The notes beneath the pieces were generated by a model. The model was not told the origin of the DNA and did no database searches. It saw nothing but the letters and a program-made list of their open reading frames with translations. A DNA stretch of 24,109 nt, from positions 1 through 24,109 of IMG/VR virus record IMGVR_UViG_3300034115_000073; one strand, 5' to 3'. The stretch is from a virus. Shown here one piece after another: positions 14,002 to 22,408 of the stretch (the first letter of the stretch is position 1; the number at the start of each line of letters is the position of its first letter). The position numbers and the translations under genes were made by a program.

Positions 14002-14852
14002 AGGATCACCGACTTGGCGAAGCCGCCACACTCATACGTGATGACGTATTCCCGCTCCGCCAGCATCAAGAACTGGTTGTTGGTGCGGTCAAGGGAACCT
14101 TCCACCGGCGCGATTTGCACCTGCGAATCCGGGGTACGCCAAATGGTGGTCTGCCCGGTCAGATACATCCAGAAGACACCATCAGCTGGCGCGGCACCGG
14201 CAGGGTCGTTGTTGGCGTAGCAGCCGGCGGATACCACGGTGCCCATCGGTGTGCGCCAACGCGTCCCGTCGAAGTCGATGACATGCTGCGACTTCAGCTC
14301 GTTGAACACCGGAATGGCCACATGCAAAATGCCCGGAGGTCCGTACTGGGTCAGGTTGCCGGTGAAGCCGCAGTAACGTGCCCGTTCCAGTTCGGACAGC
14401 ACGTTGACGACGGTGTCGCCGGCACCGGTGACGGTGGTGATGCCGTCAGCGGTGACCAGGCCTGGACCTTGTCCGAGAGTCGAGGTGGAAAACAGTTCCT
14501 CCACCACCGACTGCTCGACACCTTTGAGGCGTTCCAACACGAACGCCTGCTGCTCGGCATAGTCGTAGCCGACGGTGCCGCATTGCATGGTGGCGAACAC
14601 GATGAAAGGCAAACCGGTGACAGTGGTCAACCCGTTCTCAGTGAACGCTGCCGCTTTGCTGTTCTGTGCGGAGATACATTCGACTTCGTAGCCGAAACCT
14701 TCACCGCACAGCGCCGTTTCGTAGTGCACGCCACCGTTGCGGCCGTGTACCGGTAGGTCCAGCGGGCCTATCGCAGCCTGAAACAGCCCGTACCGCAGGG
14801 GTAGGGATGCTGTTGGCTTTTCTACTGGTACTGCTGGGATCGTCGCTACCAT
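13992..14852 (-). CDS. Second large head protein, possibly HK97-fold related
   Basis: A 286-aa protein starting at ATG 14852 behind AAGGAGGTG. It begins LPLRYGLFQAAIGPLDLPVH, then has LPFIVFATMQCGTVGYDYAE, a helix with VLERLKGVEQSVVEELF, a segment ILHVAIPVFNEL and a C-terminal half with WRTPMGTVVSAGCYAN, VFWMYLTGQTTIWRT, TNNQFLMLAEREYVITYECG. Helix plus late beta strands with an 'LAER-yvv' ending recall HK97-fold coat-like proteins, and the position next to the major capsid gene fits a head component. It may be a minor capsid or a decoration protein. I cannot name the family with certainty. Confidence 0.5.
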   Translation of the reverse strand: MVATIPAVPVEKPTASLPLRYGLFQAAIGPLDLPVHGRNGGVHYETALCGEGFGYEVECISAQNSKAAAFTENGLTTVTGLPFIVFATMQCGTVGYDYAEQQAFVLERLKGVEQSVVEELFSTSTLGQGPGLVTADGITTVTGAGDTVVNVLSELERARYCGFTGNLTQYGPPGILHVAIPVFNELKSQHVIDFDGTRWRTPMGTVVSAGCYANNDPAGAAPADGVFWMYLTGQTTIWRTPDSQVQIAPVEGSLDRTNNQFLMLAEREYVITYECGGFAKSVILWT

Positions 14853-14878
14853 GTGTCACCTCCTTAAGCGACTTGGCG

Positions 14879-14904
14879 AGGGGGCAGCCGGATAGCTGCC
14901 CCCT
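14879..14904 (-). terminator. Perfect 10-bp hairpin downstream of the major capsid gene
   Basis: AGGGGGCAGC and its exact reverse complement flank a 6-base loop, 10 bases after the capsid gene stop. There is no U-run. It probably ends or stabilises the 3' end of the capsid mRNA, giving this gene a higher expression than its downstream neighbours. Confidence 0.7.
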
Positions 14905-14914
14905 GTTGCGTCAC

Positions 14915-16723
14915 TTACGGAGTCACGTCCGAGCAAGTCACCGCACGCTGCACGCCGGTGGAACCGTTGGCACAGATGTTGATGGTGTACGCAAAGCTGA
15001 ACTGGCACATGCGCATCGGCTTAAAGCCGTCCTCCATGAACAACTGCGTCACCAGGTTCTGCTGCAGGTTCGTGCTGTCGTACACGGTGTCGAGGCGGAT
15101 GACGTCCTGACGTCCCAGCACCCATGTACCCGGCAGGAAGGCCAGGAAGGTAACCGAGGTCGGGTTGTTGAACATGGCCGCGGCGACCGGACCAGCCGGG
15201 TTACCGAACTGGTGGTTCACGTCGATGGCGCCTGCACCGTTGGTCGGGTCGAACGCATCCTGCCAGTCGTAGATCCACTGCACGGTCACGTAACGACGTG
15301 CCAGCGCAGCCGAGATCATCTGGTCAGTGAGTTCCTCGGTGTGCGTCGCGTTGCGGCGCAACCAGTCCGAACGCAGAGCCGACTGCACCCAGTACGGGAA
15401 CACGAACTGCACAGTCTGGGTACGGCTGGTGCGGTACATGTAGCGGATGTTCTTCGCCACCATGTCAATGGCGGCCATCAGCTGGGACCACACCGAACCG
15501 TCGGTTGCCCACGGGTCCACAGTGGACAGTGTGACCGCGGTGGAGCCAGCCTCGATCGCGTTGACCACTTCACGGTTCACCAGGTGAGCCATCGCCGCGA
15601 TCGCACCCTGAACGAACTCGGAGACGAACTCCGGGTAGCCGCGGTTCTGCAGCAGCGAGGATGTCAGACACAACGCCGCGACGTCCAGGCGGTCATCGAC
15701 GAACGTAGGACACGGGATCTCGACACACGTTTTCGCTGTGTCGGCGATAACCTGCGCCTCAGTCAGGATGTTGAAGCCGGGGATCGGCAGGACAAGGTCA
15801 TTGCCGAAGAAGTCTGCGAAGTCCAGACCCTGGTTGTGCAGCAGGCCGCCGCGGCGAAGCACCATCTCCGGAATCGACAGCAGACCGTCGGTGGTGATCG
15901 GGTTGCAGATGCTGTAGTCCGGCATCGACGGTGCGCACCAGCCGTTGGCAGCCACCAGGGCGCCGTCTGTGCGCCCGGCGGAGTCCGACACGTTCTTCAG
16001 CTTCGCGAACGCAGACTCGTGACCGTCGGACTCCATGACCACCTGAGCGTCAGGGTAGTCACGGCGGATCGTGGCCAGCGACGCCTGATGCCGCGTCCGT
16101 ACACCAGTCTTGGCGATACCACCGTGGCTGCGTGCACGTTCCTCGAACGCTTTGCCGATGGACTTCCATGTCAGCTCGGATCCCATGGGGAAGCCGGCAA
16201 TGTCCGCCGCGGCCACAATGGTGTACTGGTCTGCGCCGGCAACCATTTCCACTACCGGTACATGTGGTGCTACATCCGAGATGCCCACGGAGCGCCGTGG
16301 CGCATTGTCGATCGCAGTCGACGCGGTGACAGTGGCTTCGACTACTTCACCGGTGAGGACCTGGTTGGCTGGTGCCACGTCGCGGACACCTTCAGGTTGC
16401 GCTGGTGTCTCGGTGGCGGCCACGACTGCCTCTTCTGTGGCCGGCTCAGCTTCGGCCGGCGCCTCGAAGGTGGGCAGCGTCGGCAGCACTGATGCTGCGG
16501 TGAGACGCTCGCCGCGTGCGTGACGCGCAGTCAGTTCGACACCGACGTCAGCGATGAAGCCCTGCAGCTCTTCCATGCGGGCCAGCTGCTCTTCGGTGAC
16601 TGTCTCTGGTGCAACCGATGCGGTCAACGCGGAGTATTCCGTCGACGCCACATTGGCCATATCGGTGAGCCCGGCGACAGAGAAATCTTTGAAGGTTTCT
16701 TTGGCGGGCGGCGTGAATGCCAT
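14915..16723 (-). CDS. Major capsid protein with long N-terminal (scaffold-like) extension
   Basis: A 602-aa protein. I chose ATG 16723, which has an SD-like GGAAGGAA about 6 bases upstream; an in-frame ATG at 16780 adds 19 residues without SD. Residues 1-165 are rich in Ala, Glu, Pro and Thr (helix TEEQLARMEELQGFIADVGV, then a flexible acidic part) and look like the delta/scaffold region removed by the protease during head maturation. Residues 170-602 are the coat domain, with PEMVLRRGGLLHNQGLDFAD, PGFNILTEAQVIADT, a helix VSEFVQGAIAAMAHLVNREV and VQFVFPYWVQSALRSDWLRR. It is longer than most HK97-fold coats (300-400 aa) because of the N-terminus. Own promoter and terminator hairpins flank it. 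Confidence 0.85.
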   Translation of the reverse strand: MAFTPPAKETFKDFSVAGLTDMANVASTEYSALTASVAPETVTEEQLARMEELQGFIADVGVELTARHARGERLTAASVLPTLPTFEAPAEAEPATEEAVVAATETPAQPEGVRDVAPANQVLTGEVVEATVTASTAIDNAPRRSVGISDVAPHVPVVEMVAGADQYTIVAAADIAGFPMGSELTWKSIGKAFEERARSHGGIAKTGVRTRHQASLATIRRDYPDAQVVMESDGHESAFAKLKNVSDSAGRTDGALVAANGWCAPSMPDYSICNPITTDGLLSIPEMVLRRGGLLHNQGLDFADFFGNDLVLPIPGFNILTEAQVIADTAKTCVEIPCPTFVDDRLDVAALCLTSSLLQNRGYPEFVSEFVQGAIAAMAHLVNREVVNAIEAGSTAVTLSTVDPWATDGSVWSQLMAAIDMVAKNIRYMYRTSRTQTVQFVFPYWVQSALRSDWLRRNATHTEELTDQMISAALARRYVTVQWIYDWQDAFDPTNGAGAIDVNHQFGNPAGPVAAAMFNNPTSVTFLAFLPGTWVLGRQDVIRLDTVYDSTNLQQNLVTQLFMEDGFKPMRMCQFSFAYTINICANGSTGVQRAVTCSDVTP

Positions 16724-16734
16724 GGGTGTTCCTT

Positions 16735-16761
16735 CCGACACAAAGCTTGGGATCGTGTCGG
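16735..16761 (-). promoter_or_regulatory. Hairpin in the 5' leader of the capsid mRNA
   Basis: CCGACAC and GTGTCGG form a 7-bp stem with a 13-base loop directly adjoining the SD of the capsid gene. A structure here could protect the mRNA or affect ribosome loading. No known riboswitch is recognised. Confidence 0.35.
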
Positions 16762-16795
16762 CAGGCTCACAGCGCATCACCGTCTAAACGTGCAC

Positions 16796-17473: not shown

Positions 17474-18984
17474 CAGATCCCCCTTGCGGTAATGTCCACA
17501 TACCTTGCGGCTCGCGCCTTAGCGGCGAGCTTATCCGCTTTCACCTGCAGCTGGGACAGACGAGCTGTCAACGCCGGATCCATCTGCTCCAACGGTGCAG
17601 ACGTGCCACCAAGAGCAACGATCTCCTCCTCGGACAGGACCATCCCAGCGGCAACCAGGGACTGCACCTCACCGGAAGCGTTGAGACCCACCACCGGGAA
17701 CCCAGGAGTGTTCACCGCCAATGCGGCCACCAGCTCCAGGCCCTTAGGTGTCGGACGCCAGTCACCTGACAGCGGCGAGCGACGCAACTCCGCTACCTTG
17801 CCCTCAGACACTTCAGGCACCGTCGCGCCGGCAACCCAAATGCCGTGGATGTCCTCACCGGCCGCAACGACAGCCACGCCGGTGCCAGTGTTGTCATAGT
17901 GGTCCGCGGCCGGTATGTAGCCCAGACGCAGATTCGCATGCCCAGTCCCCACCGTGATACGCCCCACCCGGCGCTGTGTCCCGTCAGCGGTCAGGACAGC
18001 ACCGGTGGCGAAATACTGATATCCGGTGTTGCTTCTCGGCGCCATCCGGCACACATCTTGCATACCGAAATGACACACATTCCACAACGCCAGATGCCCT
18101 GTTACCTGACCGTCAGCAGTGATGGACAGCGGTGTCGGGCCTTGCAGCATCGGATCGTCAAACCAGTGCGCTGGTGGACGCAAAGGTGCAGCAGCGGTCA
18201 TGGCTTCCTCACTTTCCTCCAACGCTTCCAGCTGCTGGAGCAGCTCCTGGATCTGCGTCATGTTCTCGTCGGGTATGTCGAAACTGTTGCTGTCGTTGAT
18301 GTATGAGGCCAGTAGCGTGGACACCGCTTTCGGGATCAGCCTCAGCTGCCCGTCGACAATGTCGGCCACGGGCAGCTTGTATCCGTTGCGATGCGGGATG
18401 GCACCCTCCCACCACAGAAACCCTTTGCGGTACTGCCGCATGTCACCGTCAGCCCATGCGGCGATACGGTCGGCGGCGTGACGTGCGTTCCATGCCGCAC
18501 CGGGCGCCAACGGCAGCTGCGTCACCGCCATGTTCACCGCGGATGCAGTGGTGCTGATCTGCCGATTGGGACGATCCTGCGGCGGGGTGTCATCGCGTTC
18601 CCACGGTGGGATGACACGCGGATCGCCGTACACGTCACGCAGCTTCGAATAGATTTCAGTCACCACATTGCGCAGTTGCTTCTTCTCGTCCTCGCCCACG
18701 ACACCTTCCAGGCCACCGTGGGCGCCGGAAAGGATTGCCGCAGCAGTGAACACGGCATGTGGGATCAGCACATATTTGCCGTTGATGACATCAGCGATGG
18801 GTAGCCGGTAGCTGTTTTTGTTGTTCGGCGGCCCCTGGCTGTTGCGCCACAGGAACGCCATGTTGAAATGCTCCACCGAACCGGCGGATGCCTGCTGGAT
18901 GCGTTTGATCGCATCATCGGCGTTGAACGCCTGGTCCCTGTCGGCGATGGGGAACCGGCGCCACGTCTTGACGTTGACGGCCAT
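17473..18984 (-). CDS. Capsid maturation protease with duplicated N-terminal module
   Basis: A 503-aa protein; ATG 18984 overlaps the MuF gene stop (TGATG). Residues about 11-85 and 157-228 are two copies of one module: each has an A-x-x-R/K-I helix, then F-L-W, then Y-(R/K)-L-P-(I/V)-A-D-(V/I)-(I/V)-(N/D)-G and L-I-P-(H/K)-A-V. Residues 270-435 look like the protease: the candidate catalytic His is H362 in ADHYDNTG and the candidate Ser is S403 or S406 in LRRSPLSGDWRP, followed by LELVAALAVNTPGFPV, as in capsid assembly proteases of actinophages. A C-terminal helix (residues 465-495) could be a scaffold. It would cleave the N-terminal part of the coat protein in the prohead. Confidence 0.78.
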   Translation of the reverse strand: MAVNVKTWRRFPIADRDQAFNADDAIKRIQQASAGSVEHFNMAFLWRNSQGPPNNKNSYRLPIADVINGKYVLIPHAVFTAAAILSGAHGGLEGVVGEDEKKQLRNVVTEIYSKLRDVYGDPRVIPPWERDDTPPQDRPNRQISTTASAVNMAVTQLPLAPGAAWNARHAADRIAAWADGDMRQYRKGFLWWEGAIPHRNGYKLPVADIVDGQLRLIPKAVSTLLASYINDSNSFDIPDENMTQIQELLQQLEALEESEEAMTAAAPLRPPAHWFDDPMLQGPTPLSITADGQVTGHLALWNVCHFGMQDVCRMAPRSNTGYQYFATGAVLTADGTQRRVGRITVGTGHANLRLGYIPAADHYDNTGTGVAVVAAGEDIHGIWVAGATVPEVSEGKVAELRRSPLSGDWRPTPKGLELVAALAVNTPGFPVVGLNASGEVQSLVAAGMVLSEEEIVALGGTSAPLEQMDPALTARLSQLQVKADKLAAKARAARYVDITARGI

Positions 18985-20579
18985 CAGCGTGTCCCCCTCG
19001 TGAAGCGCGGCTTGCAGCGGCAGTTGTGAGATACAATTTCGTCGGCTACATACACGCCACTTGCCGTTTCGAACGTGTAGAGGTACCCGTGAAAATCATT
19101 GATCTCGGCAACATCGACGACCTGATTCAGAGATATATCAACGGGGAAAGTCTTAAAACGCTGGCCGACGAAGTCAGCATCTCCAGGCCCACGCTGCGTC
19201 AACGCTTCATCGACAGCGGGATCCCCATCCGGGGACGCTCCGAAGCTGAGCGGCTTAAGTGGAGTCGCATGGAGGAGGTGCAAAGATTCAACCAGGTCTC
19301 CAAAGCCCACGAGGCCGTTAGAGGCGTTGCGCGGACTCATCAGGAGCTGATCAAGCGCGCCTCCGCTCGCGTCAGGCGCGTCGGCAAAGATGAGATTCAG
19401 CTCGTCGAAGACCTGGCACTGCTTGGGGTGCAAGCCGAAGCTCAACTCCCCGTCGACAAGTACAACATCGATGTTGCTGTTGCTCCCGTCGCCGTGGAAA
19501 TCCACCGGCAGACCTTCCACCCGTTCGCAGACACCAGACTGCATAAGCGAACCGAAGATCTCTTCGGCTTTGGCTGGCGCACACTTTACGTCTGGATCAA
19601 CCATCAAAGAGGCCAGACAGTTAACTGCGCCAACGAGGTAGTCGCCCTTGTCGAGCTGGCGCGCCAGGACCCAGCCACGTTCGGTAAGTACAGGGTGATT
19701 CGGGCTGACGGTAAGCAAGCCCCCATGCTCCCGCGTCACGGCAAGCATGCTGCCGGTGTAGGTATACCGGAATCCCTTCTTCACCCGTGACGCGGTAATC
19801 AGTGCGTCGCCAGTGACGCAGTTGATCACGTTCCACGGGCTGCCACTGGGATCACCTGGCGCCATCAGCGGTTCACCGGACACGATGAAAGGTTGGGACA
19901 GGAAACGGATCTGCCCATCGGCCAGCCGGTGACCTGGACGTACCGCCGAGTCGTCACGTGAGAGCCACTGCTTGAACATGAACGGCAGTTCCTCGCGCTG
20001 CTGAATGCGCATCGCCGCGGCCAGCGCACCGAAGTTCCAGGCGCGATGCACTTCTGTGACAGAAACTGTCCTTGCTCTGGCCGGCCAGTTCTCGGTGCCT
20101 GTAACGTCCAGGACATGACGAACCCGTGCCGCTTGCTGGTCTACGCTTTCGCCGTTCGCGACAGCTGCACCAAGTTCATCGATGATCCGCCGGTAAACCT
20201 CGTCTGGTGTGCGGACCATCAGGTTGCGCGTCCTGGCGAGCTGGTCTTGAAGGATGGAGTCGGTTGGGTCGAATGGGATGTCCACCCCGAGCTGGCGCCC
20301 CGCTTCGATCCACCCAGCTCGTGCAATCTGCTCAAGGCCGGAGATCAGGCGATCTACCTGCCGCTCCCAAATGGGCACTGTGGACCAGATTGCTGTTGGA
20401 TCTGGGGGTGCGCCGAACCGAGTGAAAGCCGCCAGCACAGCGGCTGCAACAGCACCAAGCCAGGCGGCGTACATGGAGACCACTAGCGCCGCAATGGATG
20501 CCTCAAACGCCGCCAGAGCCAGTGCACCGGTTGGTGCTGGCTCTTCGGGGATGCCCTGCGGCAACTGGGGCGATGTCAT
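18984..20579 (-). CDS. MuF-type minor head protein precursor interrupted by an intein
   Basis: A 531-codon frame; ATG 20579 overlaps the portal stop (ATGA). Residues 1-253 are the N-extein: helices, then the MuF region with TVSVTEVHRAWNFGALAAAM, WLSRDDSAVRPGHRLADGQI and a closing GSPWNVIN. Residues 254-519 are the intein. Residues 520-531 (CRCKPRFTRGTR) are the C-extein. Splicing would give a 265-aa protein with the conserved NCRC of this family (VINCRCKPRF) restored exactly. MuF/SPP1-gp7-like proteins are minor head proteins, located near the portal and sometimes injected with DNA. The position between portal and protease is standard. Confidence 0.88.
   Translation of the reverse strand: MTSPQLPQGIPEEPAPTGALALAAFEASIAALVVSMYAAWLGAVAAAVLAAFTRFGAPPDPTAIWSTVPIWERQVDRLISGLEQIARAGWIEAGRQLGVDIPFDPTDSILQDQLARTRNLMVRTPDEVYRRIIDELGAAVANGESVDQQAARVRHVLDVTGTENWPARARTVSVTEVHRAWNFGALAAAMRIQQREELPFMFKQWLSRDDSAVRPGHRLADGQIRFLSQPFIVSGEPLMAPGDPSGSPWNVINCVTGDALITASRVKKGFRYTYTGSMLAVTREHGGLLTVSPNHPVLTERGWVLARQLDKGDYLVGAVNCLASLMVDPDVKCAPAKAEEIFGSLMQSGVCERVEGLPVDFHGDGSNSNIDVVLVDGELSFGLHPKQCQVFDELNLIFADAPDASGGALDQLLMSPRNASNGLVGFGDLVESLHLLHATPLKPLSFGASPDGDPAVDEALTQRGPGDADFVGQRFKTFPVDISLNQVVDVAEINDFHGYLYTFETASGVYVADEIVSHNCRCKPRFTRGTR
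19032..19037 (+). promoter_or_regulatory. Candidate -10 box for the antisense endonuclease gene
   Basis: TACAAT (one mismatch from consensus, fits TANNNT) lies 51 bases before GTG 19089, within the last codons of the intein on the other strand. A TTGCAG at 19012-19017 is only 14 bases away, so the -35 is doubtful. A leader of about 45 bases would include the SD. Confidence 0.4.
19089..19790 (+). CDS. HTH + Vsr/DUF559-like nuclease, antisense within intein (probable homing endonuclease)
   Basis: A 233-aa protein from GTG 19089, 4 bases after AGAGGT (SD); an earlier GTG at 19026 in frame has no SD. Residues 8-58 hold a helix-turn-helix (LIQRYINGESLKTLADEVSI, then SRPTLRQRFIDSGIPIRGRS). Residues 100-170 look like a Vsr/DUF559-type restriction-fold core: a helix EIQLVEDLALLG, a strand KYNIDVAV with D128, APVAVEIHR with E137, TFHP with H144, basic helix TRLHKRTEDLFGFGW and strand RTLYVWI. 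Such cores occur in EDxHD-type phage homing endonucleases. Residues 195-233 lie opposite the intein block B and may be non-essential. The gene is fully nested in the intein and would cut intein-less MuF alleles. Function is inferred; fold confidence is good. Confidence 0.8.
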   Translation: MKIIDLGNIDDLIQRYINGESLKTLADEVSISRPTLRQRFIDSGIPIRGRSEAERLKWSRMEEVQRFNQVSKAHEAVRGVARTHQELIKRASARVRRVGKDEIQLVEDLALLGVQAEAQLPVDKYNIDVAVAPVAVEIHRQTFHPFADTRLHKRTEDLFGFGWRTLYVWINHQRGQTVNCANEVVALVELARQDPATFGKYRVIRADGKQAPMLPRHGKHAAGVGIPESLLHP

Positions 20580-22408
20580 CGAGAAGCTTCCTGAAGCATC
20601 GCGGCGAGCAGTGTTGGAGAGTGTTCAATCCTGTTGGTCAGAAGACCTTTTGCGTAGGAGTGAAGAACAGGTTGCAGCTGCTTACGCGGTGCCGGAACCC
20701 CAGCAAAGTAGTACTCCCACTGATCCCATGCCCCCGCCAGAAGAGTCTCTGCGTGAGCAGATGAGCCCACCAGGATTTTGGTGTGCAACAGGTGAGGAGG
20801 TGTGGTTCCAAACACCCCACGGTGAGTGGGGGTCAGGAGACGTTTGCCTGCCAGTTCTAGAGCACGTACCACCAAACCATTGGCTGCAATGGACACCGCA
20901 GTCGGTGGCGGAACGGCGGAAGCTATCAGCTGAGAGTCCCCACCATCTGTCACCGCCGGCTGCTCCGGCTGCTGACCAGGTTCAGGGGACGTAGGAACAC
21001 GCCCTGGTGCTGGCGGTGGCGGTGCACCAGGTGCCAGTTCCGGCACGGCCGTGTCGATGTCGATGCCGATTTCTTCACGCACCGCGGTGATGGCGAACAG
21101 TGTCGGGTCGCGCAGCAGCAGCTCTTTGATGAACCGGGTGGCGATCTCTTCAGTGCTCGGCGCATCGGCGTCGGTGTAGCCGCCTTCACGGCGCACCGTG
21201 TCCGCGGAAACCACGGGAGGGTTGGCGTTGTACAGGTTCAGGGCATCGGCGAGCTTGTTCGCCGAGTTCGCCAGCGGAGCTGTGTCGTACCAGTAGGTGA
21301 AGCGTTTTGGGTCCTTGCCCAGAGCCTTGAGCGCACCCACCAGGTACGCGGTGGTCAGCGCGTCGACGATGCGGTTGAACAGTGGCTGCATCGTTTTGAC
21401 GATGAACTCTTCGCCGGCCCACCAAATGGACCAGTGGTTCATCTCCTGGCCACCCAGCTGAATCTCCACCGGCACGTTCATGCCGATGGCGAGTTTCTGC
21501 TGCTGCTCTTTGCGAAGCTCAATGGCCTGGTCGGACAGTGGCGAGTCGAAACGGATCGGCTGCACCCCTGACATTGCTGTCAGTTCAGCAAGGGGCATCT
21601 GCCACAGGATCGGTGCGACTTGTGCGGCGGTGCCTTTACCCTCCAAATTGGAGGTGATGACTTCGAATAGCTGCTGGTAGATGTCGTCTGTTGCTACAGC
21701 CTGGTTGTCGCCTTTGGGTACGGCCAATGTGGACGGTACCGGCAGGATGGTGGCGTTGGCGATGCGGGAGTTCATCTGGGCGCGGATGAACATTGACATC
21801 TGTTCCATCTCGAACAGGAGTCCCAGTAGCGCACGGACGGGGGAATCGGCTAGGTAGGCGCGTCTTGGGTGTGGTGTCCAGGTGCGGATGACGATGTCGC
21901 GGCCGGGGTTGATTTCTTCACGCTGCGCACGTCCCATGTTGACGTAGACGACGTCACCGTTTTTGCGTACCTCGCCGGGTGCTGCCACCCACCACTGATC
22001 GGACATGCCGCCACGCATCGCCTTGCCGATGATGAAACATTCACCGGCGACAATGAGTGATTCGGCGATGCCACGCAGCATCTCGGCTTTGTTCGCCGGC
22101 CCGCCGAACAGTTGCTCGGCAAGTGCGCCCACTTCGGCGTCATCATCTACTTCGCCTTGTCGCACCCCGTTCTCGTCGACTTCTGCGACATAGATGCGGA
22201 TCATTGACGCAGCGGCGCCTATGTAGTCGACGGCGTTGTGCAGCTGAGCGTTGGTGTCATAAAAATCCCAGGCCTGCCGCTGCCATGCCTCGTCGGTGAA
22301 GCGGTAGCCTCGCCATGCCTCCTCGGACAGCCCCATCCGCACCGCGGAGGCGATGAGGCTGCCGGCTTCAGGCTCCAGCACTGCCTCAGCCTTTTTTCTA
22401 AACACCAT
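20576..22408 (-). CDS. Portal protein
   Basis: A 610-aa protein. I chose ATG 22408, 7 bases after GGAGGAG, over an upstream in-frame ATG at 22459 inside the previous gene. It forms the dodecameric ring through which DNA enters the head. Typical elements: an N-terminal segment with WDFYDTNAQLHNAVDYIGAA, a wing with LRGIAESLIVAGECFIIGKA, DIVIRTWTPHPRRAYLADSP, the stem/crown part with FIRAQMNSRIANATILPVPS, DQAIELRKEQQQKLAIGMNV and PVEIQLGGQEMNHWSIWWAG. The C-terminal 130 residues are Pro-rich (APGAPPPPAPGRV) then helical, longer than in most portals. It lies between terminase and MuF genes as expected. Confidence 0.9.
   Translation of the reverse strand: MVFRKKAEAVLEPEAGSLIASAVRMGLSEEAWRGYRFTDEAWQRQAWDFYDTNAQLHNAVDYIGAAASMIRIYVAEVDENGVRQGEVDDDAEVGALAEQLFGGPANKAEMLRGIAESLIVAGECFIIGKAMRGGMSDQWWVAAPGEVRKNGDVVYVNMGRAQREEINPGRDIVIRTWTPHPRRAYLADSPVRALLGLLFEMEQMSMFIRAQMNSRIANATILPVPSTLAVPKGDNQAVATDDIYQQLFEVITSNLEGKGTAAQVAPILWQMPLAELTAMSGVQPIRFDSPLSDQAIELRKEQQQKLAIGMNVPVEIQLGGQEMNHWSIWWAGEEFIVKTMQPLFNRIVDALTTAYLVGALKALGKDPKRFTYWYDTAPLANSANKLADALNLYNANPPVVSADTVRREGGYTDADAPSTEEIATRFIKELLLRDPTLFAITAVREEIGIDIDTAVPELAPGAPPPPAPGRVPTSPEPGQQPEQPAVTDGGDSQLIASAVPPPTAVSIAANGLVVRALELAGKRLLTPTHRGVFGTTPPHLLHTKILVGSSAHAETLLAGAWDQWEYYFAGVPAPRKQLQPVLHSYAKGLLTNRIEHSPTLLAAMLQEASR

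Follow-up and report, generated by a model that had tools for sequence, protein, structure and literature searches.

A phage MuF intein with a homing-endonuclease-like gene in the facing codons of its opposite strand

The DNA analysed here is a 24,109-base IMG/VR virus record (IMGVR_UViG_3300034115_000073), called the window below, and all coordinates are window positions. Its minus strand encodes a MuF-like minor head protein whose gene holds a 266-codon intein, and the plus strand of the same intein DNA holds a complete gene for a protein resembling a homing endonuclease. Very probably, the two form a mobile intein with two functions on opposite strands of one DNA segment; we infer that both are translated and that the element splices, cleaves and homes. 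An earlier note, made from the letters of the sequence, had proposed a mobile element with splicing and homing on opposite strands, and that proposal is supported by the analysis. None of the outcomes that the note had named as fatal turned up: homologous inteins keep the plus frame, the protein-level constraint of the intein centre lies on that strand, and a nuclease fold is predicted. The features concerned are as follows.

18984..20579, minus strand: gene for a MuF-like minor head protein, with the intein inside; precursor of 531 aa; Phage_Mu_F match, E 1.6e-6; PHROG head morphogenesis/head protein
19821-20579, minus strand: N-extein, part of the MuF gene
18987-19022, minus strand: C-extein, part of the MuF gene
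19023..19820, minus strand: intein, 266 codons; Cys1 ... His-Asn266 then Cys+1 (HN/CRC, the slash marking the junction); Intein_splicing match; same site in 63 relatives; closest solved structures are inteins
19692..19718, minus strand: splicing block B (LLTVSPNHP); its complement is the conserved C-terminal motif YRVIR of the endonuclease; H42 invariant
19065..19091, minus strand: splicing block F (HGYLYTFET); its complement holds the Shine-Dalgarno (SD) sequence and start codon of the antisense gene
19023..19046, minus strand: splicing block G (ADEIVSHN), preceding Cys+1; N266 invariant
19089..19790, plus strand: antisense homing-endonuclease-like gene, GTG start, 233 aa; codons face the intein codons exactly
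19079..19084, plus strand: SD-like AGAGGT, 4 nt ahead of the GTG start; duplex energy -7.2 against a control median of -2.25
19110..19214, plus strand: helix-turn-helix (HTH) DNA-binding part, endonuclease residues 8-42; HTH profile matches; AlphaFold2 helices 9-17, 22-28 and 33-42
19377..19703, plus strand: Vsr/EDxHD-like nuclease domain, endonuclease residues 97-205, with E102, D128, E137 and H144; indicated by profiles, AlphaFold2, structure matches and conservation
19485..19568, both strands: constraint in both frames; sense residues 85-112 (DFHGDG) facing the nuclease catalytic strands (VAVEI)

The plus-strand open reading frame (ORF) ends at 19790 and could start no earlier than 19026; because 19026 and 18984 are 42 apart, antisense and sense codons face each other exactly. 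The antisense gene is nested in the intein: its start falls in the complement of block F, its end in that of the first intein residues. On the sense side, the window protein matches Intein_splicing (Pfam, E 2e-6) in addition to Phage_Mu_F, and C1, H42 and N266 are invariant across the 63 relatives, 60 of which match Intein_splicing. The in-frame endonuclease of a canonical large intein is absent, in that the window sense protein has no LAGLIDADG or HNH match in Pfam. In the AlphaFold2 model of the sense intein the splicing blocks and the stretch 81-121 are confident, the centre is mostly unfolded (pLDDT 38-55), and the structures that match are those of inteins. The coordinates and profile matches thus agree with what the earlier note had read from the window: an intein with its splicing blocks, no endonuclease motif in the sense centre, and a complete opposite-strand gene with an SD sequence and GTG start whose codons face those of the intein. 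Two other arrangements were considered and set aside. MuF and intein form one continuous ORF, not a fractured gene with a split intein; and a group I intron with an antisense endonuclease gene finds no counterpart in Rfam, which gives no intron family up to E 1 in 18500-20600.

The antisense protein is predicted to have an N-terminal HTH and a nuclease fold of the Vsr/EDxHD type. Its AlphaFold2 model, built with 75 sequences, has a mean pLDDT of 90.6 and consists of helices over residues 9-60, including the HTH, followed by a mixed alpha/beta domain. The closest solved structure is the homing endonuclease I-Bth0305I (3r3p; Z 9.5, rmsd 3.3, 92 residues aligned), which is also matched at the profile level (E 2e-4); 3hrl (Z 9.4) and Vsr (1cw0, Z 9.1) come next. 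In Pfam, the window protein matches HTH families, REase MTES_1575 (PF18741) at E 6e-4 and, weakly, DUF559. The PF18741 score of 20.6 bits lies below the curated cut-off of 38.2, and 58 of 75 relatives match this family at E 0.01 or better; judged by these profiles, the protein is a relative of PF18741 and not a filed member of it. Searches in Rfam, NCBIfam and PADLOC did not improve on this identification. The HTH and Vsr-like core named in the earlier note are supported. Of its three proposed active-site residues, D128 and E137 are kept in 75/75 aligned relatives and H144 in 51/75; E102 is kept in 70/75.

A tblastn search with the plus-strand protein matched 123 of 50,697 phage records, 104 of them over 80% or more of its length. 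(E-values and counts throughout refer to the collections named.) The hosts of the matched phages include Gordonia, Salmonella, Pseudomonas, Klebsiella, Vibrio, Acinetobacter, Haemophilus and Idiomarinaceae, among others, so that the suspicion in the earlier note of a family among actinophage inteins was correct and too modest. Among the matches listed, the antisense homologue lies opposite a MuF or head gene, or in a record where that gene is unnamed. At the same Gordonia loci the antisense protein scores 147 bits, against about 100 for the sense intein. A viral contig scan with the window antisense protein as single query yielded no relatives. The relatives analysed number 87, comprising 80 kept of 204 from IMG/VR, whose sequences are uncultured, and seven from GTDB genomes; the pattern scan used picks out members that carry certain peptides. 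Both frames of every one of the 87 are open across the matched stretch and stand in the same phase, at GC contents as low as 36%, and the exteins belong to MuF, Phage_min_cap2, VG15 or portal-MuF proteins. The site is of one kind in all 63 inteins examined: they begin with Cys1 and end in Asn, and the next residue is Cys.

Counted by locus, with some redundancy, 128 of 138 matches have an open facing strand. The other ten comprise two free-standing Acinetobacter genes, one frame-broken record marked UNVERIFIED (L116, broken in both frames) and seven nuclease-only chromosomal DUF559-like proteins; in L107 the antisense gene is intact. The weak nuclease-only matches L133-L138 and L140, in genomes of the phylum of L106, look like ordinary DUF559-like proteins with facing stops and were placed outside the nested family. 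In the annotated records inspected, the antisense gene is annotated only in the free-standing Acinetobacter case. Two members of low GC, phage Aaphi23 (L012) and a Helicobacter prophage (L118), have the antisense endonuclease frame open; in the latter, at 35% GC, stops face the exteins and none face the intein core. A divergent intein in Escherichia phage fEg-Eco06 (L020), at another position of the same MuF gene, also has an antisense HTH-nuclease ORF. In Mycobacterium phage Sejanus (OP172873.1, 6967-7359) a weak nuclease match falls inside a gene annotated as capsid maturation protease, a possible further host gene.

Which strand is under selection can be read from the distribution of variable sites, as sense position 1 coincides with antisense position 3. 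Among seven alleles from Guernseyvirinae, the counts of variable sites at sense positions 1/2/3 are 101/71/218 in the N-extein and 26/17/94 in the C-extein, and the order is reversed in the endonuclease core, with 112/34/69 (p 0.0017). The part of the sense frame that lies beyond the endonuclease start is again sense-like (1/1/9). The same codon-position signature is found in 11 pairs of family members, and the window compared with its nearest relatives gives 124/74/104, in the same direction. A constraint map of 63 members, made on the sense alignment and therefore favouring the sense reading, assigns sense constraint to residues 1-56 and 239-266, antisense constraint to most of 57-238, and both to about 85-112. 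Codons TTA, CTA and TCA, which are stops on the other strand, occur 0 times in all 63, against 411 expected under the codon usage of the exteins; 12 are present in the free-standing Acinetobacter homologue, which has no gene opposite. By these patterns the antisense protein is under purifying selection and dominates the constraint in the intein centre. The centre is, by the same patterns, not equally constrained on both strands, and sense residues 85-112 and the splicing blocks are constrained as well. The DFHGDG stretch appears structured in the sense AlphaFold2 model and faces the nuclease active-site strands; it may be a true sense subdomain or a mirror effect.

The start signals of the antisense gene are written into the codons of block F. 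Counted from the end of the intein, codon 20 is where the endonuclease starts in most of the family, its ATG being the complement of the block F His and the preceding GGAGGT that of Asn-Leu; the window has the variant GTG with AGAGGT. The median SD duplex energy of the family is -6.9, against -2.25 at control starts, a comparison with some bias towards the real set, each start being the best-scoring of a few candidates close to the end of the intein. These signals are not dictated by the sense amino acids, as the codons concerned are synonymous choices: the Leu codon is CTC in 35 of 47 members (11.7 expected) and the His codon CAT in 32 of 38 (16.9 expected). In three members where D-T/A-S replaces the usual motif, AGGAGG is retained. 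On this codon usage, the SD sequence and start codon of the antisense gene are under selection, exerted through synonymous choice in block F. At the other end of the gene, the family block B (TPNHP) faces a conserved endonuclease motif, RVIRG.

There are also signs that the insert moves. Intein-less MuF alleles with an exact empty site occur in fEg-Eco19 and K1ind2. The intein of the Kagunavirus Snoke is 95-98% identical to those of the Jerseyviruses NCTh5, UPWr_S3 and BPS11T2, while the N-exteins of these three are 68-72% and their C-exteins 81-83% identical to those of Snoke. In UPWr_S3, about 120 bases of the upstream flank are also Snoke-like before identity drops to 0.63, and this flank looks co-converted. 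The cross-genus identity of the inteins and the empty sites indicate homing, and transfer of the insert is evidenced by these alignments. In Salmonella phage dunkel (L109) the N-extein is Kagunavirus-like and the C-extein less so; a recombination boundary may sit at the intein. Distance matrices of endonuclease, splicing blocks and exteins (r 0.45, 0.44 and 0.32) did not discriminate between scenarios.

The mechanism that we propose would run as follows. When the sense strand is read with MuF, the Hint splicing blocks would excise the insert from the minor head protein. When the other strand is read, a separate HTH endonuclease of Vsr/EDxHD fold would be made, which would bind and cut intein-less MuF alleles at the conserved HPN/CRC-coding site, and repair of the cut allele would copy the whole insert. 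The following weigh against this mechanism: the E-D-x-H-D motif is matched only in part, as H144 varies and no residue was assigned to the last D; a promoter scan found no sigma-70-like promoter near the antisense gene of the window; and Snoke and its relatives testify to mobility of the insert, from which its being driven by the antisense enzyme is a further step. A broader proposal, to which we give about even chances, is that two-strand inteins form an old, widespread class, of which the window holds one, with splicing and homing lying obligately on opposite faces of the same codons, block F doubling as start codon and SD sequence of the endonuclease and block B as its C-terminal motif, and with homing perhaps separated in time from the synthesis of the head protein by antisense transcription.

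One alternative grants that the antisense protein is a genuine nuclease, or binds DNA, but gives it another role in the phage, such as exclusion, by cutting the head genes of competitors, or regulation, and holds that homing is not its main function. Interference between phages can involve their homing endonucleases, and the predicted fold and HTH suit either role; we nevertheless consider this improbable, because nesting in an intein of patchy distribution, precise empty sites and cross-genus identity are what homing would lead one to expect. The protein could also serve both roles. It is less likely still that the splicing element is a passenger, a free-standing endonuclease having invaded the MuF site and the intein, no longer transferred together with it, serving as a device for host tolerance. 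The Acinetobacter phages L016 (1809-2702) and L119 (2501-3391) would fit such a history, in that their intein-less MuF gene is followed directly by a full-length free-standing homologue in convergent orientation; yet full-length free-standing relatives are found only in these phages, nearly all others are nested in a complete intein, and the whole insert moves as one block. The Acinetobacter gene may instead be an escape from the nested state. That the plus frame is a shadow ORF, the non-coding mirror of a conserved GC-rich sense gene, is already contradicted and has next to no probability: exactly facing phase and high GC often keep the other strand open, as in a 608-aa antisense ORF opposite the capsid gene of the window, but the frame is open in phages of 35-45% GC, where many stops are expected, antisense position 3 is its fastest site, its predicted product has a confidently modelled nuclease fold, synonymous choice favours its start signals, and a homologue exists with no gene opposite. 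Since chance ORFs of up to 608 aa occur in this GC-rich window, length was rejected as evidence; what lifts the antisense frame beyond chance, by our comparisons, is homology, selection and stop avoidance.

EDxHD/Vsr-like homing endonucleases occur in introns, as with I-Bth0305I in a group I intron, or between the halves of fractured genes with split inteins; the latter, with EDxHD/Vsr-like endonucleases, were reportedly described by Dassa et al. in 2009. The opposite-strand mobile intein preferred here shares with these enzymes the catalytic fold and a DNA-binding extension, but its endonuclease gene occupies the DNA of a contiguous intein, on the opposite strand. Like mobile inteins with in-frame LAGLIDADG or HNH domains, it is a contiguous intein in a conserved gene, with Cys1 ... 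HN/Cys+1 and presumed cutting of empty sites; unlike them, its endonuclease would be a separate opposite-strand protein of another fold rather than an intein domain. The EDxHD family itself has been described (PMC3943268). In nuclear rDNA group I introns, antisense His-Cys box endonuclease genes have been shown to be expressed and to cut (PMC9548176); there too the endonuclease gene is antisense to its splicing element, but splicing is of RNA, so that there is no two-strand protein coding, the nuclease family is another and the hosts are eukaryotes. Overlapping frames are frequent in actinophages, and a methylase insert in phage ShiLan hides an out-of-frame HNH (PMC11855218); this phage insert is likewise open in the frame of the host gene with an endonuclease in another frame, but it has an HNH and no splicing domain. 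Ambigrammatic narnaviruses also have two opposite stop-free frames, and polymorphism indicates that their reverse frame codes for no functional protein (PMC8155312), whereas here the reverse frame shows coding selection. In the literature searched, no intein whose endonuclease lies on the opposite strand was found described. Such a case may be reported in a 2025 preprint on actinobacteriophage inteins and non-canonical architecture (Gosselin, Arsenault and Gogarten, doi 10.1101/2025.01.02.630785), which PMC11855218, from the same group, cites, and priority is uncertain.

If our reading is true, nature would here offer a strongly supported example of exactly facing codons that encode two unrelated functional proteins, kept in phages of several bacterial phyla, and a mobile intein would carry its endonuclease in a new way. 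Surveys of inteins in the sense frame only would miss such homing endonucleases, and overprinting, strand conflict and homing would become directly testable in laboratory phages.

Finally, we note that the genes of the window comprise terminase, portal, MuF, capsid and tail genes, and that nine long control antisense ORFs of the window have no credible Pfam match. The 608-aa ORF lies at 14666-16492 (plus strand), opposite the major head protein gene at 14915-16780; it has no Pfam match and is probably a chance GC-rich ORF of unusual length.
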